Source: Rhodanobacter soli (lineage in GTDB: Bacteria; Pseudomonadota; Gammaproteobacteria; Xanthomonadales; Rhodanobacteraceae). From it: a stretch of 64,000 nt of DNA. Positions 10,464 through 33,274 of this stretch are shown here, piece after piece. The DNA is taken from the NCBI RefSeq assembly GCF_040548735.1, contig NZ_JBEPSD010000001.1, positions 1-64,000 on the forward strand, in the 5' to 3' direction. How positions within the stretch are numbered: the first letter of the stretch is position 1; every line of letters starts with the position of its first letter. Under the pieces are notes generated by a model, which was not told where the DNA came from, ran no database searches, and was given only the letters and a program-made list of their open reading frames with translations. A program made the translations under genes and the position numbers.

Positions 10464-13390
<2,927 letters not shown>

Positions 13391-16498: not shown

Positions 16499-17944
16499 TC
16501 AGAGGGGGGCGACGCTGGCGGCGAGCTGCTCGCCCCACGCCTGCAACTGGTCGAGCAGGGCCAGCTTGTCCTGCGCCTGCGGATCGTGGCGGAGTTCGCC
16601 GAGGCGGGCGAAATAATCGTCGAGGGTGAGTCCGGTAAGCGGCGTGTGGCGGGTGAGGCGCGCTTCGCGGAAGCTTTCCCAGCGCGTTCGCTCGTCGGCA
16701 TCCAGCGTTTCGGGCCAGTTGCGCGCGCGGTAGCGGAACAGCAGCTCCGCATAGCGTGGATCGCGGAACGGGAACGCGCGCGTGCCCAGTTCCTTCGGCG
16801 GCGTGGCGCGCACCTGGGCCAGCAGGCGCTTGTCCGCGTCGGGCAGGAAGCCGCCGCCGTACAAGGCCAGTTCGGGGTCTTCCGGTGGCGGCAGTTCGGC
16901 GGCGCGCTGGAACACGCGGCGCAGTTTCTCGGCGAGCCCGTCGACGGCATGCAGCACGTCACGGTGGGCCTGGCAGCGGGCCAGGTCCAGCTGCAGGCGG
17001 TCCAGGTCCACGCCCTGCAGCACCGACAGCGGCGCCAGCGCCGGCGCGTGGTTCGCGCGCACGGTGCGCAGCGGGATGCGTTCGATATCCTCGGGCAGGT
17101 CGGCGCGCGCGGTGAAGATGCGGTCGGCGATCTCGTCCTCGTCCAGCGCCAGCCATGCGGCCGGGTCGGTGGCGAGGTCGTACACGATCACCTCGCCGGG
17201 GCGGCTGGGATGCGGCGCCAGCGGCGCGATCACGGCCAGGCAATGGCGGCTGGCCGGGTAGCGCGAGGAGACGTGCACCAGCGGCGTCATGTTTACCGCG
17301 TCGAGCAGCTCGAACACCTTCTGCTTGCGGCGCAGGCCGTAGTACCAGTCCCACAGCCGCGGCTGGCGCACGCGGATCAGCCGGGCCAGGTCGATCAGCG
17401 CGTAGACGTCCGACAGTGCGTCGTGGGCGCGTTCCTGCTTGAGCTGGTTCGCGCCGGCCAGGTGTTCCAGCTTGAAGCTGGGCGAGCCGTCCTCGCGGAG
17501 CGGCCAGACGATGCCTTCGGGCCGCAACGCCTGGCACATGCGCACCAGGTCGATCAGGTCCCAGCGCGAGTTGCCGTTCTCCCACTCGCGGCCGTACGGC
17601 TCGTAGAAGTTGCGGTACAGCATCTGCCGGGTGAACTCGTCGTCGAAGCGCAGCGAGTTGTAGCCGACCCCGCAGGTGCCAGGCGCCGCCAGCTGTTCGT
17701 GCACGCGAGCGGCGAATTCGGCCTCGCTGACCCCTTCGCGTTCGGCCTGTTGCGGGGCGATGCCGGTGATCAGGCAGGCGTCGGGGTGGGGCGGCATCTC
17801 CAGCGAGGGCCTGCCGTAGAACATCACGGGTTCGCCGATGACTTCCAGTTCGAGGGTGGTGCGGATGCCGGCGAACTGCAGCGGCCGGTCGCGCCGCGGG
17901 TCGGCGCCGGAGGTCTCGTAGTCGTGCCAGAAGAAGGTCTGCAT
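16499..17944 (-). CDS. sbcB: Exodeoxyribonuclease I
   Basis: A 481-residue DnaQ-fold 3'-5' exonuclease (E. coli SbcB is 475). ExoI motif [19 protein letters not shown] gives the first acidic pair (Asp8, Glu10); motif II is [11 protein letters not shown], and the last motif contains RAHDALSDV. It degrades single-stranded DNA and acts in mismatch repair and recombination. I start at the ATG at 17944 ([11 protein letters not shown]); earlier in-frame codons lie in the short intergenic space. It is divergent from orn, another DnaQ-fold exonuclease. Confidence 0.95.
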
Positions 17945-24903: not shown

Positions 24904-24988
24904 GCCCAGGTGGCGGAACTGGTAGACGCACTACCTTGAGGTGGTAGCGACGCAAGTCGTAGGGGTTCGAGTCCCCTCTTGGGCACCA
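24904..24988 (+). tRNA. tRNA-Leu (anticodon GAG)
   Basis: An 85-base tRNA with acceptor stem GCCCAGG/CTTGGGC, encoded CCA, D-arm, a long class II variable arm and T-arm GGGGTTCGAGTCCCC. The anticodon stem is CTACC/GGTAG with loop TTGAGGT, so the anticodon is GAG (leucine, CUC/CUU codons). The 3' end is the integration site of the adjacent mobile element and remains intact. Confidence 0.97.
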
Positions 24989-24991
24989 ATG
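24975..24991 (+). repeat. attL core of the tRNA-Leu integrative element
   Basis: CCTCTTGGGCACCAATG spans the last 14 bases of tRNA-Leu and three bases beyond. A near copy, CCTCTTGGCACCAATG (one G fewer), occurs at 32822-32837. This places the element between them. P4-type integrases commonly use tRNA 3' ends. Confidence 0.8.
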
Positions 24992-25031
24992 GACGTTTCA
25001 GGAAGTCTCACGAAGTCTCTGAAACACACGG

Positions 25032-25098: not shown

Positions 25099-25139
25099 TT
25101 GTGTATGTTTTTGTGTATGATGGCGACATCCATACACAA
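25099..25139. repeat. TTGTGTATG sites upstream of int (left arm)
   Basis: Three copies of TTGTGTATG: direct at 25099-25107 and 25111-25119, 12 bases apart, and inverted (CATACACAA) at 25131-25139. The same direct pair with the same 12-base spacing lies at 32739-32759 near the other end. Such sites are the expected arm-type binding sites of the integrase or operators for the AlpA-like protein. The inverted pair overlaps the likely int promoter. Confidence 0.7.
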
Positions 25140-25153
25140 ACTGGTCCCGCTTT

Positions 25154-26446
25154 ATGCCCCGTCTTGCCAAGCCCCTTACCGAGCTTCAAATCAGCAAAGC
25201 CAGAGCCAAAGCCAAGCCGTATGCGCTGGCCGACGGTAATGGGCTATACCTCATGGTGAGCACGGCCGGCTTGAAGACGTGGGTGGTTCGCTATCGCCTT
25301 CCCGGTAGCGCCACGGCCACGCCCGCCACCATTGGCCGTTATCCGGCCATGACCCTTGCGGAAGCCCGTGTGTGCGCTGTGCAGGCCAAGCGGGACGCAG
25401 CACAGGGCAAAGGCACGGCTGGTACGCGCAAGGCGCAGCAGGTCGCAGCCCAAGCGGAGACGGGCGAGCAAGAGGCCGAGGCAGCGGCATCGGCGGAAGC
25501 CGAGCGGGCCACTTTCAGGGCCGTATCAGGCCGCTGGTTGGCCGAGAGGCGGCCCGGCTGGGCAGCAGAGACGTACCGGAAAGCGCGACTAGTGGTGGAT
25601 TCTTACCTAGTCCCGAAGCTGGGCGATGCAGACATGCGCACGCTTGAGACCAAGGACGTCCGGCCGGTGCTGGTCGAGATGGCAGCCAAGACGCCACAGC
25701 TTGCCCGGAAGGCCCGACAGTACGTGGGTAGCATCGTAGATCACGCGATCAATGAGGGGCTGCGGCCGGACGAAAGCGCGCTCAGGCTTGCCAGAAGTCT
25801 GCCCACGTTCCGCAGTGGTCACATGCCGGCCGTCACGGACGATGAGGGCAAGCTGGGCAAAGTTATGCGCGCCATTGATGCCCACGGGAATCGTGTGGTC
25901 CGCGCTGCGTTGACCCTGGCGGCTCTGACCGTCATGCGGTCTGGTGTGGTTGCCAGCGCCCGATGGTCAGAGATCGACCTGGTGGCGGGGGAGTGGAAGA
26001 TTCCCGGCAAGGAGCCGGATGGCAGCAACCGCATGAAGACCGGGCAGGATTACAGCACATCACTGCCGGCGCAGGCGCTAGAGGTATTGCGGGAGATGCA
26101 CGCACGGAGCGCGGGAGAGGAATACGTCTTCCCGCCGCAGGCCCGGCAGAACACACCGCACCTGTCCCGCGACGCACTGAGCAAGGCGCTCAGGGATATG
26201 GGCTTTCAGGGCGAACACACCACCCACGGCTTCCGGGCATCGCTGCGCACGCTGGGCCGTGAGCGGCTGGGCGTCGACGTGGATGTGCTGGAGGCACAGC
26301 TTGCCCACGCACCGAAGGACGAGGTGGAAGCGGCTTATGCGCGGGTGAAGTTCAAGGAGCAGCGCCGCGTGGTCATGCAGGCGTGGGCCGACTATCTGGA
26401 CAAGGTGAAGGGCGGCAACGTGGTGGAGTTCAAGCGCAAGGCTTGA
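25154..26446 (+). CDS. P4-type tyrosine recombinase (integrase)
   Basis: A 430-residue integrase. The N-terminal DUF4102-type arm-binding domain (LTELQISKARAKAKPYALADGNG) is followed by an unusual Ala/Glu-rich linker (about 85-118), a core-binding domain and the catalytic domain. Catalytic residues are Arg262 (TVMRSG), His358 and Arg361 (HGFRAS), His385 (LAHAP) and the nucleophile Tyr395 (AAYARVKF). All are present, so it looks active. Its position beside attL and the tRNA fits integration and excision at the tRNA-Leu 3' end. Confidence 0.94.
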   Translation: MPRLAKPLTELQISKARAKAKPYALADGNGLYLMVSTAGLKTWVVRYRLPGSATATPATIGRYPAMTLAEARVCAVQAKRDAAQGKGTAGTRKAQQVAAQAETGEQEAEAAASAEAERATFRAVSGRWLAERRPGWAAETYRKARLVVDSYLVPKLGDADMRTLETKDVRPVLVEMAAKTPQLARKARQYVGSIVDHAINEGLRPDESALRLARSLPTFRSGHMPAVTDDEGKLGKVMRAIDAHGNRVVRAALTLAALTVMRSGVVASARWSEIDLVAGEWKIPGKEPDGSNRMKTGQDYSTSLPAQALEVLREMHARSAGEEYVFPPQARQNTPHLSRDALSKALRDMGFQGEHTTHGFRASLRTLGRERLGVDVDVLEAQLAHAPKDEVEAAYARVKFKEQRRVVMQAWADYLDKVKGGNVVEFKRKA

Positions 26447-26482: not shown

Positions 26483-27082
26483 TCATCTGTCGTTTTCGCT
26501 CAAAGCCGCCGACGCAATCTTTTCCTGTTCCGCGAGGGGAGGCAAGCCGGCGCCCTTCATTATCGCATCTGGCGTGGCCATGAATGTCGCCATGAGTCGT
26601 GTCAGCGGCTCGTGGTTCGCTGGGTCTCTGTTAGCCGGACTCATAAGAATCGCTCGACCATGCCAAGCCGCAACTCCTTCGATAAATGCCTGTCGTGCTG
26701 GCGCGTCGAGGTATAGACAATTCTTTCGCCACCAGTCATTGCATTCATCCATCACCGCGAAGTCAGCAATGTCAGCGTCGAACAGTGCTCGCCAAAGAGC
26801 GAAGGCTTCTTGGGATGCTCTCAGACGCTCGGGACCAGCGAGTGTCCGCAAATTCTGATGGGCTTTGAAAGATTCAATGAAAACGTTCTGCTCATGTGCG
26901 CGGCTTTGCGCGTCTCGGACGAAGTCCGCCCTGATCCCTTCAACCTTTTTTGTAATTTCCCCGACATCTTCTTTCGTCGCTAAATTCTCCCCTTTTCTCT
27001 TCAAGTATCCGGAGAGAAAAGCCCCGGACCAGCCGCCGATGGCGCTAAGCATCGCGATGGCCAAAGCGTACGTGATGGTCAT
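26483..27082 (-). CDS. Membrane-anchored protein of unknown function, coupled to the RM gene
   Basis: I do not recognise a named family. The 199 residues begin with one transmembrane helix (about 3-26, GGWSGAFLSGYLKRKG at its end) and a charged helix (ATKEDVGEITKKVEGIRADF), suggesting a short coiled coil. A soluble helical part of about 140 residues follows, with a WWRKNCLY motif. The start overlaps the stop of the MmeI-like gene (ATGA on the minus strand), so it is translated from the same message. Parts are less GC-rich than core genes (25 of 60 bases in 26941-27000). It could be an accessory or effector of the restriction system, or an unrelated cargo gene. Confidence 0.75.
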   Translation of the reverse strand: MTITYALAIAMLSAIGGWSGAFLSGYLKRKGENLATKEDVGEITKKVEGIRADFVRDAQSRAHEQNVFIESFKAHQNLRTLAGPERLRASQEAFALWRALFDADIADFAVMDECNDWWRKNCLYLDAPARQAFIEGVAAWHGRAILMSPANRDPANHEPLTRLMATFMATPDAIMKGAGLPPLAEQEKIASAALSENDR

Positions 27083-29868
27083 TCAACTGTCGTCCGCTTT
27101 CGACGAGATATCTTCGGCCTTTCAGCGGGCAGCAGCGAGGTCAGTTGCTGGTAGCGCTCGAACAGGAATGCCACGCGCTCTGCATCGCTCCCCAGCTTTG
27201 GTGGCTTGCGGCCGGCCAGCTTCTCGGCGGCCACGTAAGCGGCATCCACGGCGCGATCCAGCGCCTGATGGGCCTTCACCAGTGCGGGCGGCATGGTGAT
27301 CGGGTCGTACAGGTCAGCCAGTGTGCTGTTCGGAAACGTGGCGCGCGCGTTGAGCACGGCTTGCGCGGCGGCTTCGATGGCTTCGTGGTGCTTGTCGGTG
27401 GTCGAGTCGGGCCACGGGAAGTTGTTGTAGACGATACCGGCGGAATAACGGAAGTCACTTTTCAAACGACCGCAGACAGATCGCACCCAAGCCATGTGCA
27501 TCGTCGAGGTCAGAATGCCAAAGTCGAATACTGATCCACCCGTAACCGTAAACAATTCAGTGCTTGCAATAGTCTGCTCGTCAAGAAAGCCAATCGGTAT
27601 GAACGCGCGGTTCTCTGAGGAGGTTTTTGGTATTGCGATATAGCCGATTTCTGGTTGTCGAATCTCACCGAACAGTGTCGGAGTTCTCGCCAGCATGTTG
27701 GTAGTCGGGCGGGGACTTTCTGTGCGAACTCCTTTGACAGCTGCAACACGCGTCGACAAATGTGGAAACGCACGTAGCTGATCGGGAGTGATCTTGACGA
27801 GCCAGAGACACCAGCGGGCAATGCCGTTGATGAATTCCTCCGAACCAAGAAATGGCCTTATCCACGCCGCTGCTCCTGGCTCGATCGCCAGTAGCGCTGT
27901 TTTCTCTTGATCGCTCAACAGCAAGTGTCCGCCGTCATTTGGCATACTGCCAAAGGCAATGTCGGGTGCTTGCGAGATTGAAGCCGAGCGTCTGGAGAGG
28001 AAGGTCTCGGGCGCATCCACGAGATAAGGATTGATGCGAGACGTTTGCACCAAATGTGCATCGCCCTCCACACGTTCATAGTCAAACAGCTGTTTTGTAG
28101 AACTGTCCGGCACCGCAAAGCCAATGATGACGCAGTGCACCGCCGCCTTGCCTTTAGCTTCGTTGCTCCACTTGAAAGTTCGATGAGCGAACTGGATATG
28201 CATACCACGTCGGTATAGCTCACCCCACAGTACGCCGACCTGCTCACCCTGCGTGATTGAATTAGTGGAGACGAAGGCGCAATGGATTACGGTGCCTTGT
28301 ACATATTTGGCAGCCAGCAGATACCACGCCGCCACAAAGTCCAAGACTCCCGAACCCTTCACCCCAGAAAATACGTAGGACATGTCTCGCTTCTGCTCGG
28401 CGTTCTGCTCTTTCTTACCGACAAACGGCGGATTGCCTAAGATGTAACTCAGCTGTTCCTTCGGCACCACATCGTTCCAGTCGATTCGCAGCGCATTGTC
28501 ATGCACGACCATCGGTGACTTCTTTAGCGGCAGGCGTGCGAAGTAGTTGCCGAACGCCTCGCTGACCAGCATGTTCATCTGGTGATCCATGAGCCACATG
28601 GCGACCTGCGCGATTTGCGCGGGGAACTCCTCGATCTCGATGCCGTAGAACTGATCTACATCGACCTGGACTTCTTCGGTGACCCACAGGGCACGTGAGG
28701 AGGCCCCTTCGGGATGCAGGCGGCGCAGCACCTCCAGCTCCAGCAGGCGCACCTCCCGGTACGCGATGACGAGGAAGTTGCCGCAGCCGCAAGCCGGGTC
28801 GAGGAACCGCAGGGCGGCAAGCTTGCTGTGATAGGCCCGCAGCTTGGCCTCGTGGCTGCCGATGCGTTCCAGCTCGGCTTTCAGGCCATCCAGAAACAAC
28901 GGGCCGACCAGCTTGAGAATGTTCTTTTCGCTGGTGTAGTGCGCGCCGAGGTTGCGGCGGGCCTTGGCGTCCATAACGGACTGGAACATGGAGCCGAAGA
29001 TGGCCGGCGAGATACGGCTCCAGTCCAGCAGCGAGGCGTCCAGCAGCAACTCGCGCATTTTGGCGTCGAACGCCGCCAACGGCAGCGATTCGGCGAACAG
29101 CTTACCGTTGACGTAAGGAAACTCCGCGAGCTGGGCATCCAGTGTGGTCTGGCGCCTGTCCGTGTCCGTGTTGAGCGTCTGGAATAGCTGCGCCAGCCAC
29201 TGACCAAGGTCCACGCCGTCCGCCGAGGTGCGCTGCGACAACAGCTCGTGGAAGGTATGCGGCGGGAAGATGCCCGTGTCATCGGCGAACAGGCAGAACA
29301 GCAGACGCACCAGCAGCACCTCCAGTGCGTGCCCGTCGTAGCCAGCTGCCTTGAGCGCGTCGTGTAACTTGCCCATGCGCTCGGCGGCCTGCACGTTGAC
29401 CGGATCTTCTTCCTTGAATGATCGCGCCTGATAGCCGGCGATGAAGCCGAAACGGCGCACCTGCTTATGCAGGTCTTTCAGCCCGAACTCGACTGGCTCC
29501 GCATTGGTTTCGAGATCGTAAAGCCGGAACCGGGCGAAGTCGGAGACCAGCAGGTACTTCGGCAGCTCGGCATCGGTGAGACCGTGGAAGTAGTCGCGGG
29601 CTTGCTGGTGAGCACGGTCGAGGCTCTTGCCGCGTGACTTGTGTTCGACCAGCAGCACGCCTTTCCACAGCAGGTCGATATAGCCGTCCTTGCCGTCGAT
29701 CTTCTTCACCTTGCGCTCGAAGGTGGCAAGGCGACGACGGGGCACGCCGAACACGTTGAAGAACCCGTTCCAGAACGTCTGGGCCTCGGCATCTTCGGAG
29801 CTTTCGTCGATCCATTCGCGCGAGAACGTCATCGCGCGATCCTTGATCTCATTCCAACTCAGCGGCAT
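27079..29868 (-). CDS. MmeI-like (type IIL) restriction endonuclease-methyltransferase
   Basis: A 929-residue single-chain RM enzyme, nearly the length of MmeI (919) and similar throughout by recall. The N-terminal PD-(D/E)xK nuclease has Asp65 and Glu75-x-Lys77 (YIDLLW, VEHKSRGK), the spacing of MmeI. A helical connector (about 150-300) follows. The gamma-type N6-adenine methyltransferase has motif I LDPACGCGNF (356-365) and motif IV GNPPF (478-482). A target-recognition domain (about 620-860) and a C-terminal helical bundle end the chain. MmeI-type enzymes methylate one strand and cut about 20 bases from the site. Both active sites look intact. GC falls in the target-recognition part, suggesting a domain swap. 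Confidence 0.92.
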   Translation of the reverse strand: MPLSWNEIKDRAMTFSREWIDESSEDAEAQTFWNGFFNVFGVPRRRLATFERKVKKIDGKDGYIDLLWKGVLLVEHKSRGKSLDRAHQQARDYFHGLTDAELPKYLLVSDFARFRLYDLETNAEPVEFGLKDLHKQVRRFGFIAGYQARSFKEEDPVNVQAAERMGKLHDALKAAGYDGHALEVLLVRLLFCLFADDTGIFPPHTFHELLSQRTSADGVDLGQWLAQLFQTLNTDTDRRQTTLDAQLAEFPYVNGKLFAESLPLAAFDAKMRELLLDASLLDWSRISPAIFGSMFQSVMDAKARRNLGAHYTSEKNILKLVGPLFLDGLKAELERIGSHEAKLRAYHSKLAALRFLDPACGCGNFLVIAYREVRLLELEVLRRLHPEGASSRALWVTEEVQVDVDQFYGIEIEEFPAQIAQVAMWLMDHQMNMLVSEAFGNYFARLPLKKSPMVVHDNALRIDWNDVVPKEQLSYILGNPPFVGKKEQNAEQKRDMSYVFSGVKGSGVLDFVAAWYLLAAKYVQGTVIHCAFVSTNSITQGEQVGVLWGELYRRGMHIQFAHRTFKWSNEAKGKAAVHCVIIGFAVPDSSTKQLFDYERVEGDAHLVQTSRINPYLVDAPETFLSRRSASISQAPDIAFGSMPNDGGHLLLSDQEKTALLAIEPGAAAWIRPFLGSEEFINGIARWCLWLVKITPDQLRAFPHLSTRVAAVKGVRTESPRPTTNMLARTPTLFGEIRQPEIGYIAIPKTSSENRAFIPIGFLDEQTIASTELFTVTGGSVFDFGILTSTMHMAWVRSVCGRLKSDFRYSAGIVYNNFPWPDSTTDKHHEAIEAAAQAVLNARATFPNSTLADLYDPITMPPALVKAHQALDRAVDAAYVAAEKLAGRKPPKLGSDAERVAFLFERYQQLTSLLPAERPKISRRKRTTVE

Positions 29869-29980
29869 GGCTTCCCCTCTTTAGCTGTTGCGAGCATACG
29901 ACATTGCCGGAAGCTCCCATCGAGCCGCCTAGTCTGATCGCTGAGACATGGGTTTTGGGGCGCGGTGACCGGGCGGGATT

Positions 29981-30213
29981 AATTTAGTAGTCAACATCAC
30001 CAGAAGGAACGCCGCGCTGCGCCCGGATGGAATTAAACAGTCATCCGAAAGGAGGGGGCGGCTGGGCAATGCTCAAGCTGCCCAATTTAGTCGTCATCTT
30101 GGAAGAAGGGGGCCTGGCTCCCTGCGATCGACGGCAATTTAGTCGTCACTATCAACGAAAGGGAAACCGACGCTCTGCGGCACAGCCGAGTTTAATCGTC
30201 ACCCGAAAGGTGG
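29981..30213 (+). repeat. Array of five degenerate units, period about 52 bp
   Basis: The box AATTTAGTCGTCA recurs at 29981, 30031, 30084, 30136 and 30189 (intervals 50, 53, 52, 53), each followed after a few bases by GAAAGG or GAAGG. The GC-rich filler between boxes differs in sequence, but in units 2, 3 and 5 it can fold: GGGCGGCT/AGCTGCCC near 30056-30083, AGGGGGC/GCTCCCT near 30106-30122, GGTGG/CCACC near 30209-30223. The period is not a multiple of three, so it is not coding. The array sits between the divergent RM gene and the RHH/ParB-like operon. Iterons, a centromere-like site or operators are all possible; it does not look like a CRISPR. Confidence 0.65.
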
Positions 30214-30331
30214 AGACCCCACCGCCCCAGTCACCACTGATCACCCGAGGGCATCCCAGCTGCCCCCGGCGTTTCACCGTGCCCGTCATTCGGGCAACCC
30301 ACCACCACCGACCACAGAGAGACACAGACGC

Positions 30332-30550
30332 ATGATCGACTTCGATCCCGCACACCTCGCCGCAGCCATCGCACTGACTGAGCCACTAATCATCCGCACC
30401 ATCGCCTTCGATGTGCCCACCTTCGATCGCCTGAAAGGATTTCAGCGGAAGCTGGAGAGCTTCATCCGCAGGGACACCGGCAATGCCGAGGTTCTGAAAT
30501 ACCTGATCCACACGCACCCGGAAGTGAAGGCGCTGGGCGATGGACGTTGA
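30332..30550 (+). CDS. Small ribbon-helix-helix-like protein
   Basis: A 72-residue protein with no named family that I recognise. The pattern IIRTIAFDVPTFDRLKGFQR followed by NAEVLKYLI resembles a strand-helix-helix (RHH/Arc) DNA-binding fold, but this is inference. The reading frame overlaps the next start by 11 bases, so translation is coupled to the ParB-like gene. It begins 119 bases after the last repeat unit. Together they resemble a plasmid partition or copy-control unit without ParA. Confidence 0.6.
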   Translation: MIDFDPAHLAAAIALTEPLIIRTIAFDVPTFDRLKGFQRKLESFIRRDTGNAEVLKYLIHTHPEVKALGDGR

Positions 30551-31399: not shown

Positions 31400-31543
31400 T
31401 GTCCTTACAAGGACACCGAGGAACGGCGCCAGATGGGCACCGATTGTCTGAAACGAGCCCACATATGCAGACACCGGCCACCACAACCGCAACCGTCCTT
31501 GCAAGGACACCACAGGCCATCCGCCGACTGTCTGTAGCAGACA
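31400..31543. repeat. Four palindromes of two alternating families
   Basis: Family A: TGTCCTT-AC-AAGGACA at 31400-31415 and GTCCTT-GC-AAGGAC at 31495-31508. Family B: TGTCTG at 31445-31450 pairing with CAGACA at 31468-31473, and TGTCTG-TAG-CAGACA at 31529-31543. Each is followed by CC. They alternate A, B, A, B in the gap between the ParB-like gene and the HNH-like gene. They could be operators for a dimeric regulator or small RNA hairpins. None has a T run, so they are not ordinary terminators. Confidence 0.7.
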
Positions 31544-31642
31544 CCCGGCACCAGTAACACCCACCACCCATACAGCCCCCTTCACTGCCTGCCCCGCAGA
31601 CGGTTACGGGCAGCTATTCCCCATTGAAAGAGGAACCGACAG

Positions 31643-32421: not shown

Positions 32422-32694
32422 ATGAACAAAGTCACCAGCAGCACCCAGCACACCAGCACCACCATCCGGCCCACCATCATTCGATTGCCGGAAGTCTTGC
32501 AGACCGTCGGCCTGTCCCGCGCCAGCATTTACCGGCTGATGAAGCTGGGCCAGTTCCCGCAGCAGGTACGGCTAGGCATGAAGGCAGTAGGCTGGTTGCG
32601 TGCCGAGGTTGAGCACTGGATTATCAGCCTGAGCCAAGCACGGCCCGGTTCGATGCCCGAACAGGTACTAACATTGCAGCGCACAGCGGCTTGA
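32422..32694 (+). CDS. AlpA-family regulator/excisionase
   Basis: A 90-residue MerR-like winged helix-turn-helix protein. The core IIRLPEVLQTVGLSRASIYRLMKLGQFP, then VGWLRAEVEHWI, is the AlpA/Xis signature (P4 Vis, CP4-57 AlpA). Such proteins act as directionality factors or activate int of satellite-type elements. It is the last gene of the element, 45 bases before the right pair of TTGTGTATG sites, which it may bind together with the three copies upstream of int. Confidence 0.9.
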   Translation: MNKVTSSTQHTSTTIRPTIIRLPEVLQTVGLSRASIYRLMKLGQFPQQVRLGMKAVGWLRAEVEHWIISLSQARPGSMPEQVLTLQRTAA

Positions 32695-32759: not shown

Positions 32760-32821
32760 AAGTTGTCGGCGCCATGATCTGTACCCATTGCAATCAGCAA
32801 GTTGCGGTCGATTACGGGTCT

Positions 32822-32837
32822 CCTCTTGGCACCAATG
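32822..32837 (+). repeat. attR core
   Basis: CCTCTTGGCACCAATG repeats the tRNA-Leu 3' end (attL at 24975-24991) with one G missing. Upstream of it the match to the tRNA fades, as expected for the element side. It marks the right boundary of the integrase-bearing element. Confidence 0.75.
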
Positions 32838-33274
32838 CACTGTTTGAGGACGTCCGGTGGAGTCCAAAAAACACAACGAAACCCGCAATTTGGCGGGTTT
32901 TTTTGTGTCCCGGCGTCTGATTTGGTGCACGGGCAAGCCGGCGAAGTTCGGTCAGCGTTGTCGGGTTCGACGACATGAGTCTGCCGGCGGCGGCCGATGA
33001 AACACCACGAAATGCGCAGCACGCCGCAGCATACTGCCCTCTCCGGCACCGCGCACGCTTTCCTGTTGGCCCGCCAAGGTTCAGGGCAAGCTCCCTTGCA
33101 ACAGGGTATTTGCCGCCGCTGATCATCCTGCGCCTACACGCCGTGGCGAGTTCTGCCGATCCACACCCACGCCCAGTGCCCGCATCATGCCCATGCCCCG
33201 CGAGTCAGGCCCAGACTGCCCTCTGTCAGCGCGGACCGATGACCGGGGCGACTTCCCTCGCACGAGTGCCGCGC
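32838..33274. other. Intergenic region right of attR
   Basis: 437 bases. The first 90 resemble the DNA right of the tRNA inside the element: both have a GTTT-AGGA-GTC segment, an AACACA-CGAAACCCGC-type stem, a T run and GTGTC. The rest contains no gene that I can support. In-frame upstream extensions of the next gene have no ribosome site or family similarity. Confidence 0.5.
32880..32904 (+). terminator. Terminator right of attR
   Basis: Stem AACCCGC (32880-32886) and GCGGGTT (32893-32899), loop AATTTG, T run to 32904. It is probably the original terminator of tRNA-Leu, displaced by the insertion and replaced by the similar hairpin at 25032. Confidence 0.8.

Follow-up and report, generated by a model that had tools for sequence, protein, structure and literature searches.

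Putative tandem T7/SP6-type phage promoters in a phage-satellite-like island of Rhodanobacter soli

Introduction

The PICMI of Vibrio (phage-inducible chromosomal minimalist islands) are among the closest described parallels to the locus reported here, being small islands with int and alpA whose prototype also carries a defence gene. According to the available passages of the describing paper (PMC10803314), alpA expression is both necessary and sufficient for activation, AlpA overexpression activates the island without phage, and helper activation of the early regulon is stated as open. P4-like satellites share alpA and defence cargo, and in the passages at hand (PMC8628076) the late genes of helper and satellite are under common transcription control, through Ogr/Delta. 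Temperate T7-like phages provide a third comparison: as described in the accessible part of its report (PMC10134795), a phage-specific promoter drives the RNA polymerase (RNAP) gene of phage LUZ100, and a tyrosine integrase lies near that gene.

Here we analyse a 64,000-nucleotide stretch of the Rhodanobacter soli genome (the window), which contains an array of short repeats within an integrative island. The array is best read as tandem promoters for a single-subunit T7/SP6-type phage RNAP in a phage-satellite-like island, a reading to which we assign a probability of a little under 0.8. In the titles and abstract openings of the open-access papers retrieved, we found no description of a satellite with such a T7-type promoter array.

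Results

The window island extends over 7.9 kb from a tRNA-Leu 3' end to an imperfect copy of it, and its array points at the last four genes (Table 1). An integrase, an excisionase and att sites are present, as in phage satellites, without a virion set of the island's own. No virion gene and no RNAP were recognised in the island, and no replicase among its seven ORFs in Pfam, PHROG and NCBIfam. The 11-mer TTTGTGTATGA, at 25110 and 32750, is a putative integrase arm site. Neither the 72-aa nor the ParB-like protein has a Pfam match, and a PDB profile search with the former gave weak unrelated matches. Consensus scans found no sigma-70-like site in 29800-30332 (other promoter types escape such scans) and no + strand terminator-like site from the array to the end of alpA. 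Two supposed decayed units at 30241 and 30283 in the preliminary description are better interpreted as the downstream gene's leader, since a similar leader occurs in other islands. The consensus fold of a seven-sequence alignment of this leader is weak, as is its covariation. By eye, small hairpins such as GTCCTTACAAGGAC, TGTCTGTAGCAGACA and TGCCCGTCATTCGGGCA are seen in the intergenic parts of the operon at 31400-31620 and 30236-30331 of the window.

Table 1. Features of the island and its array (window coordinates).
Feature	Position	Strand	Basis and remarks
attL, 3' end of tRNA-Leu(GAG) (tRNA 24904-24988)	24972..24994	+	ARAGORN
Tyrosine integrase	25154..26446	+	Pfam Phage_integrase, Arm-DNA-bind_3; 79% identity to L221 island integrase
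Cargo ORF, 199 aa	26483..27082	-	No Pfam, PHROG, NCBIfam or PADLOC match at limits used
MmeI-type restriction-modification enzyme, cargo	27079..29868	-	Five MmeI Pfam domains; PADLOC REase_MTase_IIG, 1204 bits
Putative promoter unit 1 (-18 to -1)	29981..29998	+	Core GTAGTC; matrix 26.2, rank 2; same core in L221
Putative promoter unit 2, divergent	30031..30048	+	Core ACAGTC; R2 E 0.033; core also in L221
Putative promoter unit 3	30084..30101	+	Core GTCGTC, as in phage contig L311; R2, matrix rank 3
Putative promoter unit 4	30136..30153	+	Core GTCGTC, as in phage contig L311; R2, matrix rank 1 (28.2)
Putative promoter unit 5	30189..30206	+	Core ATCGTC; R2, matrix rank 13
Operon leader with two small hairpins	30236..30331	+	Similar sequence upstream of homologous gene in other islands
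72-aa gene, RHH-like by eye only	30332..30550	+	Homologues 35-86% identical, beside ParB-like homologues
ParB-like protein, 283 aa	30540..31391	+	phrog_1033 E 4e-8; PDB 4umk ParB E 5.6e-4 (family profile)
HNH-like protein, 196 aa	31643..32233	+	phrog_959 E 6.5e-4; Pfam HNH_3 under its cut-off
AlpA excisionase/regulator	32422..32694	+	Pfam Phage_AlpA E 9e-22; PHROG excisionase and transcriptional regulator
attR, imperfect copy of tRNA-Leu 3' end	32819..32840	+	By eye

The array consists of five direct units, all on the + strand and spaced by 50, 53, 52 and 53 bp, which bears out the five-unit array of about 52-bp period first reported. A profile of 34 positions (R2), derived from 14 units among which are the window's five, retrieves precisely these five places from the 3.89-Mb genome at E<=10. 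In sequence, every unit is laid out like a promoter read by a single-subunit T7/SP6-type phage RNAP, a non-palindromic element of about 23 bp whose left and right parts are constant and whose core lies at -12 to -7, though units 2 and 5 show this layout weakly. These two are divergent, and the box earlier thought to be conserved in all five units is exact in only two. The view that the array is not a CRISPR was sound, as near-identical repeats are absent, the core varies between units, and two array copies are 62% and 76% identical to the reference copy. Hairpins had been reported in three of the fillers. When each filler was shuffled 200 times, 4 shuffles folded as well as that of unit 2, a clear result, and 12 as well as that of unit 5, a marginal one; the fillers of units 1, 3 and 4 did not outdo their shuffles (182, 89 and 118, respectively). 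No Rfam match overlaps the array. This weak evidence for folding, together with the match of the units to T7-type phage promoters, disfavours a set of structured RNAs.

That match was measured with a type-A matrix trained on ten promoters of T7-like phages and no island units. Units 4, 1 and 3 take the first three ranks among 127,966 window positions, with scores of 28.2, 26.2 and 23.7, against 13.5 for the next-best position and a maximum of 16.4 in the reversed-window control. Unit 5 ranks 13th and unit 2 falls outside the top 15.

Several other candidates were set aside. A CsrA sponge, a Shine-Dalgarno (SD) array, a type III antitoxin RNA, a hairpin flanking TAAAA in type-B units and an integron-like cassette boundary were dropped once the same boxes appeared in T7-like prophages. 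Exact 14-mer matches in GTDB (among the matches listed) and IMG/VR were mostly due to chance, judging from titles and single matches per locus. A ParABS/ParR centromere is not favoured, there being no ParA/ParM-type match among the seven island ORFs in Pfam, PHROG and NCBIfam.

The phages concerned are prophages and IMG/VR contigs. Profile R1 matched T7-like prophages. The initial detection of the phage promoters relied on a matrix derived from island units; the reverse tests apply phage-trained matrices to the islands. Of 230 family genomes, 5 encode a PF00940 RNAP, and three of the five belong to the window's genus. The own genome has no T7-type RNAP, so the helper must come from outside. 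Type-B promoters are present in four prophages, and the fifth RNAP locus (G345) has a partial RNAP match and no A or B sites above threshold in 19 kb. Among 17 viral contigs with related RNAPs (16 and L311), five have type-B and four type-A promoters; seven of the remaining eight have no sites, and L306 has one A-like site above the threshold and one below. In L274, L292, L295-L299, L301 and L311 one promoter precedes the RNAP gene by about 140-225 nt; in L288 (G130) and L290 (G410) the distance is about 0.95 kb. Another is found about 370 nt before the end of the RNAP gene, with more further on. Such occurrence at recurrent places in phages with PF00940 RNAPs fits promoters of the T7/SP6 type. 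All three promoters of L311 have the core GTCGTC of window units 3 and 4, and those of L299 and L301 have GTGGTC. None of the sampled type-A phages has the cores of units 1 and 5; that of unit 2 is approached, though not equalled, by the two L306 sites.

Several islands and several T7-like phages are located at, or contain, a tRNA-Leu 3' end. In the G410 prophage, two copies of the tRNA-Leu(TAG) end are separated by 45 kb, and matches of 31-41 bp to the tRNA-Leu end occur in L311, L299, G821 and G822. Two further sites are recorded here as observations. The adjacent late promoters of a T7-like prophage at L274:18731 and 18777 include one core unlike its others, and L278:7469 is an isolated type-B unit on the - strand of G130, about 23 kb past the late promoter of that genome's T7-like prophage.

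In a single clean comparison, that of L301 and L302 with L311, the core agrees with the specificity loop of the RNAP. The L301 and L311 enzymes are 88.7% identical (93 differing alignment positions), and over T7 residues 727-790 they differ only at 748 (R/N) and 756 (E/K), which we take to be base contacts of T7 RNAP. Their promoter cores differ only at -10 (GTGGTC/GTCGTC), and L302, with core GTGGTC, keeps R748/E756. Among eight type-B RNAPs, loop 742-770 is variable at 62% of positions, compared with 34% for the rest of 550-883; among four type-A RNAPs, the loop shows no such excess (10% compared with 11%). The accessible part of a published review (PMC11617373) lists -12 to -8 as specificity positions, with -11, -10 and -12 chiefly separating T3 from T7, and -9 and -8 separating SP6 from T7.

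Of 299 genomes of the order, 9 encode a relative of the ParB-like protein, as do 11 of the 233 family genomes (own genome in both counts). Together these give 14 loci in 13 genomes, with a second copy in the own genome. The family profile matches 1 of 369 genomes of the class, which is the own genome, and no match was found among plasmids, phages and viral contigs. Inspection of the region upstream of the gene at all 14 loci revealed clear arrays at eight, of type A in the window, L221 and L234 and of type B in L220, L223, L225, L226 and L233. Similar arrays thus precede homologous operons in seven other islands, as expected of the recurring oriented element first described, so the repeat does not fall for want of such arrays. 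L236 has one unit and L222 one weak unit (E 0.24). No array was seen upstream of the ParB-like gene in L227 and L235, the latter beginning near a contig end. Other repeated boxes occur at 8098-8440 of L224 and 8212-8480 of L228 (ParB-like orientation; L228 box AATAGGGTCCACCATAGGGG), possibly promoters of further RNAP types.

Phage-trained matrices were applied to other loci as well. On L234, where an HNH-like gene sits between the array and the 72-aa gene, the type-A matrix scores all five units at 15.5-27.5 (reversed control 11.2); on L221, two of four units exceed 21, and the other two score 11.7 and below 10. The type-B matrix, trained on 27 type-B phage promoters, finds eight sites in L220, ten in L225 (one of them, at 17557, 6 kb off the array), six each in L223 and L226, four in L280 and two each in L279 and L276. 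The sites lie on a single strand per locus, and reversed controls give none. L279 probably represents the rest of the G261 island, which would be divided between contigs, and L276 was entered as a non-phage locus rather than an established island; neither has a ParB-like gene in the stretch read. In L226 and L280 the units lie on both sides of the cargo (four at 17688-17864 and two at 10898-10971; two at 2505-2568 and two at 1686-1755, respectively), as if cargo had been inserted into an array. A simple operon model leaves this arrangement unexplained.

Of the type-A islands, those of the window and L221 share integrases at 79% and AlpA at 64% identity. Type-B integrases are 67-78% identical among L220, L223, L233 and L226, and type-B AlpA proteins 62-72% among L220, L223, L225 and L226. 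No integrase of L234 was found in the protein comparison among islands. The integrase adjoins tRNA-Leu(GAG) in the window and L221 and tRNA-Leu(CAA) in L220, L223 and L279; L234 adjoins tRNA-Phe instead of tRNA-Leu.

The second island of this kind in the own genome, L220 (G000:C2:366000-385000), has eight type-B units with eight different cores, so that the host carries one island of each promoter family. A gene of L220 located between those for the HNH-like protein and AlpA encodes a T7_gp14-family protein (PF24072, E 2.7e-16), which shares 69-80% identity with its counterparts in four T7-like prophages of the family. A virion protein of this kind indirectly supports a predicted dependence on T7-like virions.

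The specificity core is constant within most of the T7-like phages and varies from unit to unit within island arrays. For 27 type-B promoters of nine phages (four prophages, five contigs), the mean core distance is 1.34 within phages (29 pairs) and 3.79 between them (322 pairs), and none of 10,000 label permutations gave a within-phage distance as low. For 37 type-B units of seven non-phage loci, the values are 3.25 within (102 pairs) and 3.20 between (564 pairs), or 3.26 and 3.22 without L279 and L276. Of the 37 array cores, nine exactly match a core from the set of 16 found in phages, where column shuffling predicts 2.6 (p=0.0006). Mixed cores occur in three of the nine phages (G360, IMG_820 and IMG_822), whose minority cores supply five of these nine matches. 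When the list is restricted to the five cores with two or more occurrences in a single phage, the matches fall to 2 of 37 (0.37 expected, p=0.05); adding two IMG_834 cores raises this to 4 of 37 (0.42 expected, p=0.0006). Excluded from the phage side were L274:9120, L278:7469 and L315 (other strand or outside the phage stretch) and L296:6196 (13.5, below the threshold of 15); excluded from the island side were sites below 17.5 (e.g., L220:9660 and L225:17557) and L222, L236, L277, L278 and L281.

Discussion

If the array consists of promoters for a phage RNAP, infection by a T7-like phage or prophage induction would supply a helper RNAP that starts at the matching unit or units and transcribes rightwards through the 72-aa, ParB-like, HNH-like and alpA genes. 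AlpA and the integrase would then excise the island, and the helper would replicate and package it. The sequences show the promoter-like layout of the units, the occurrence of both promoter families in T7-like phages, the orientation and recurrent position of the arrays, the core statistics and one correlation of RNAP loop with core; we infer promoter recognition and induction as well as island excision, replication and packaging. The order from helper RNAP through array, operon and AlpA to excision is suggested by the lack of host promoter- and terminator-like sites in our scans and by the AlpA activation of PICMI. Several findings weigh against this reading: the own genome has no T7-type RNAP, the cores of units 1 and 5 are missing from the sampled type-A phages, three of nine phages have mixed cores, L234 adjoins tRNA-Phe, the window island has no recognised virion gene, and some islands have units on both sides of cargo.

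Because the units differ in their specificity cores, one island could answer several helper RNAPs and, on this sequence evidence, may sense more than one helper virus. The island might even collect and diversify RNAP promoters, with units answering different T7-like lineages and the repertoire following the evolution of RNAP specificity loops, a tentative idea that we hold at slightly less than even odds.

The strongest rival places replication first: transcripts from the tandem promoters would prime replication by the phage replisome, with gene activation secondary or additional. Origin, centromere, operator ladder and structured RNAs had all been proposed at the outset, and the first alone keeps some standing, since the primary origin of T7 consists of phage promoters in tandem. 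In the T7 record, the tandem pair phi1.1A and phi1.1B is placed directly after the RNAP gene, and the island has no recognised replicase in the seven ORFs scanned; the diverse cores, however, could serve either role. We regard origin function as the principal purpose as unlikely, though it is the alternative to be taken most seriously.

A defensive decoy, in which the array titrates or misdirects phage RNAP and operon transcription is secondary, is improbable. Multiple tandem promoters do adjoin restriction cargo, and in some islands promoter groups flank the cargo on both sides, but so few single-copy sites would probably make a poor sponge and the units all face the conserved operon that ends in alpA.

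There is very little room for a reading in which AlpA, the ParB-like protein or the 72-aa protein binds the units, be it as operator ladder or centromere. The array does lie directly upstream of the operon, and box type goes with integrase/AlpA type when the window and L221 are set against L220, L223, L225 and L226. However, the same boxes occur both upstream of and within phage RNAP genes, in sampled stretches where BLAST finds no homologue of these island proteins. Moreover, the window and L220 are closest in their ParB-like (72%) and 72-aa (86%) proteins yet differ in box type, which disfavours a centromere or a ParB/RHH ladder, and the window AlpA is about equally similar to those of L226 (B, 50%) and L234 (A, 48%). 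Overall, the evidence does not favour an iteron set, a centromere or a CRISPR. Least probable of all, by a small step, is a functionless, decayed array acquired from a prophage: two of five units are divergent, but sampled phage promoters are mostly isolated and mostly of one core rather than in mixed-core arrays, and the arrays recur at the same place in islands otherwise diverged in their genes.

Under the promoter reading, the switch of an alpA satellite would be readable from sequence as the helper's own RNA polymerase. This would mean a further class of satellites, one that relies on T7-type phages; it would also account for the mixed specificity of a promoter array, document RNAP-promoter coevolution in nature and yield orthogonal RNAP-promoter pairs.

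Set beside known systems, unit 4 is identical by eye to the SP6 promoter sites (AY288927) at 13 of 16 positions from -17 to -2; the two differ in the specificity core, and SP6 itself is not the proposed helper. Phages of the LUZ100 type, as portrayed in the available text (PMC10134795), are complete and have their own RNAP, whereas the window island has no recognised RNAP or virion gene. The PICMI model, in the passages at hand (PMC10803314), requires int, alpA and prim; the first two are present here, and no primase was recognised in the seven ORFs. The PICMI prototype lies downstream of fis, and those passages contain no T7-type promoter array. The P4 genes psu, sid, delta and alpha are absent from the Pfam, PHROG and NCBIfam matches of the seven ORFs. 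Finally, P4, in the accessible account (PMC8628076), uses an activator protein, whereas the window island is proposed to carry promoters for the RNAP of its helper.
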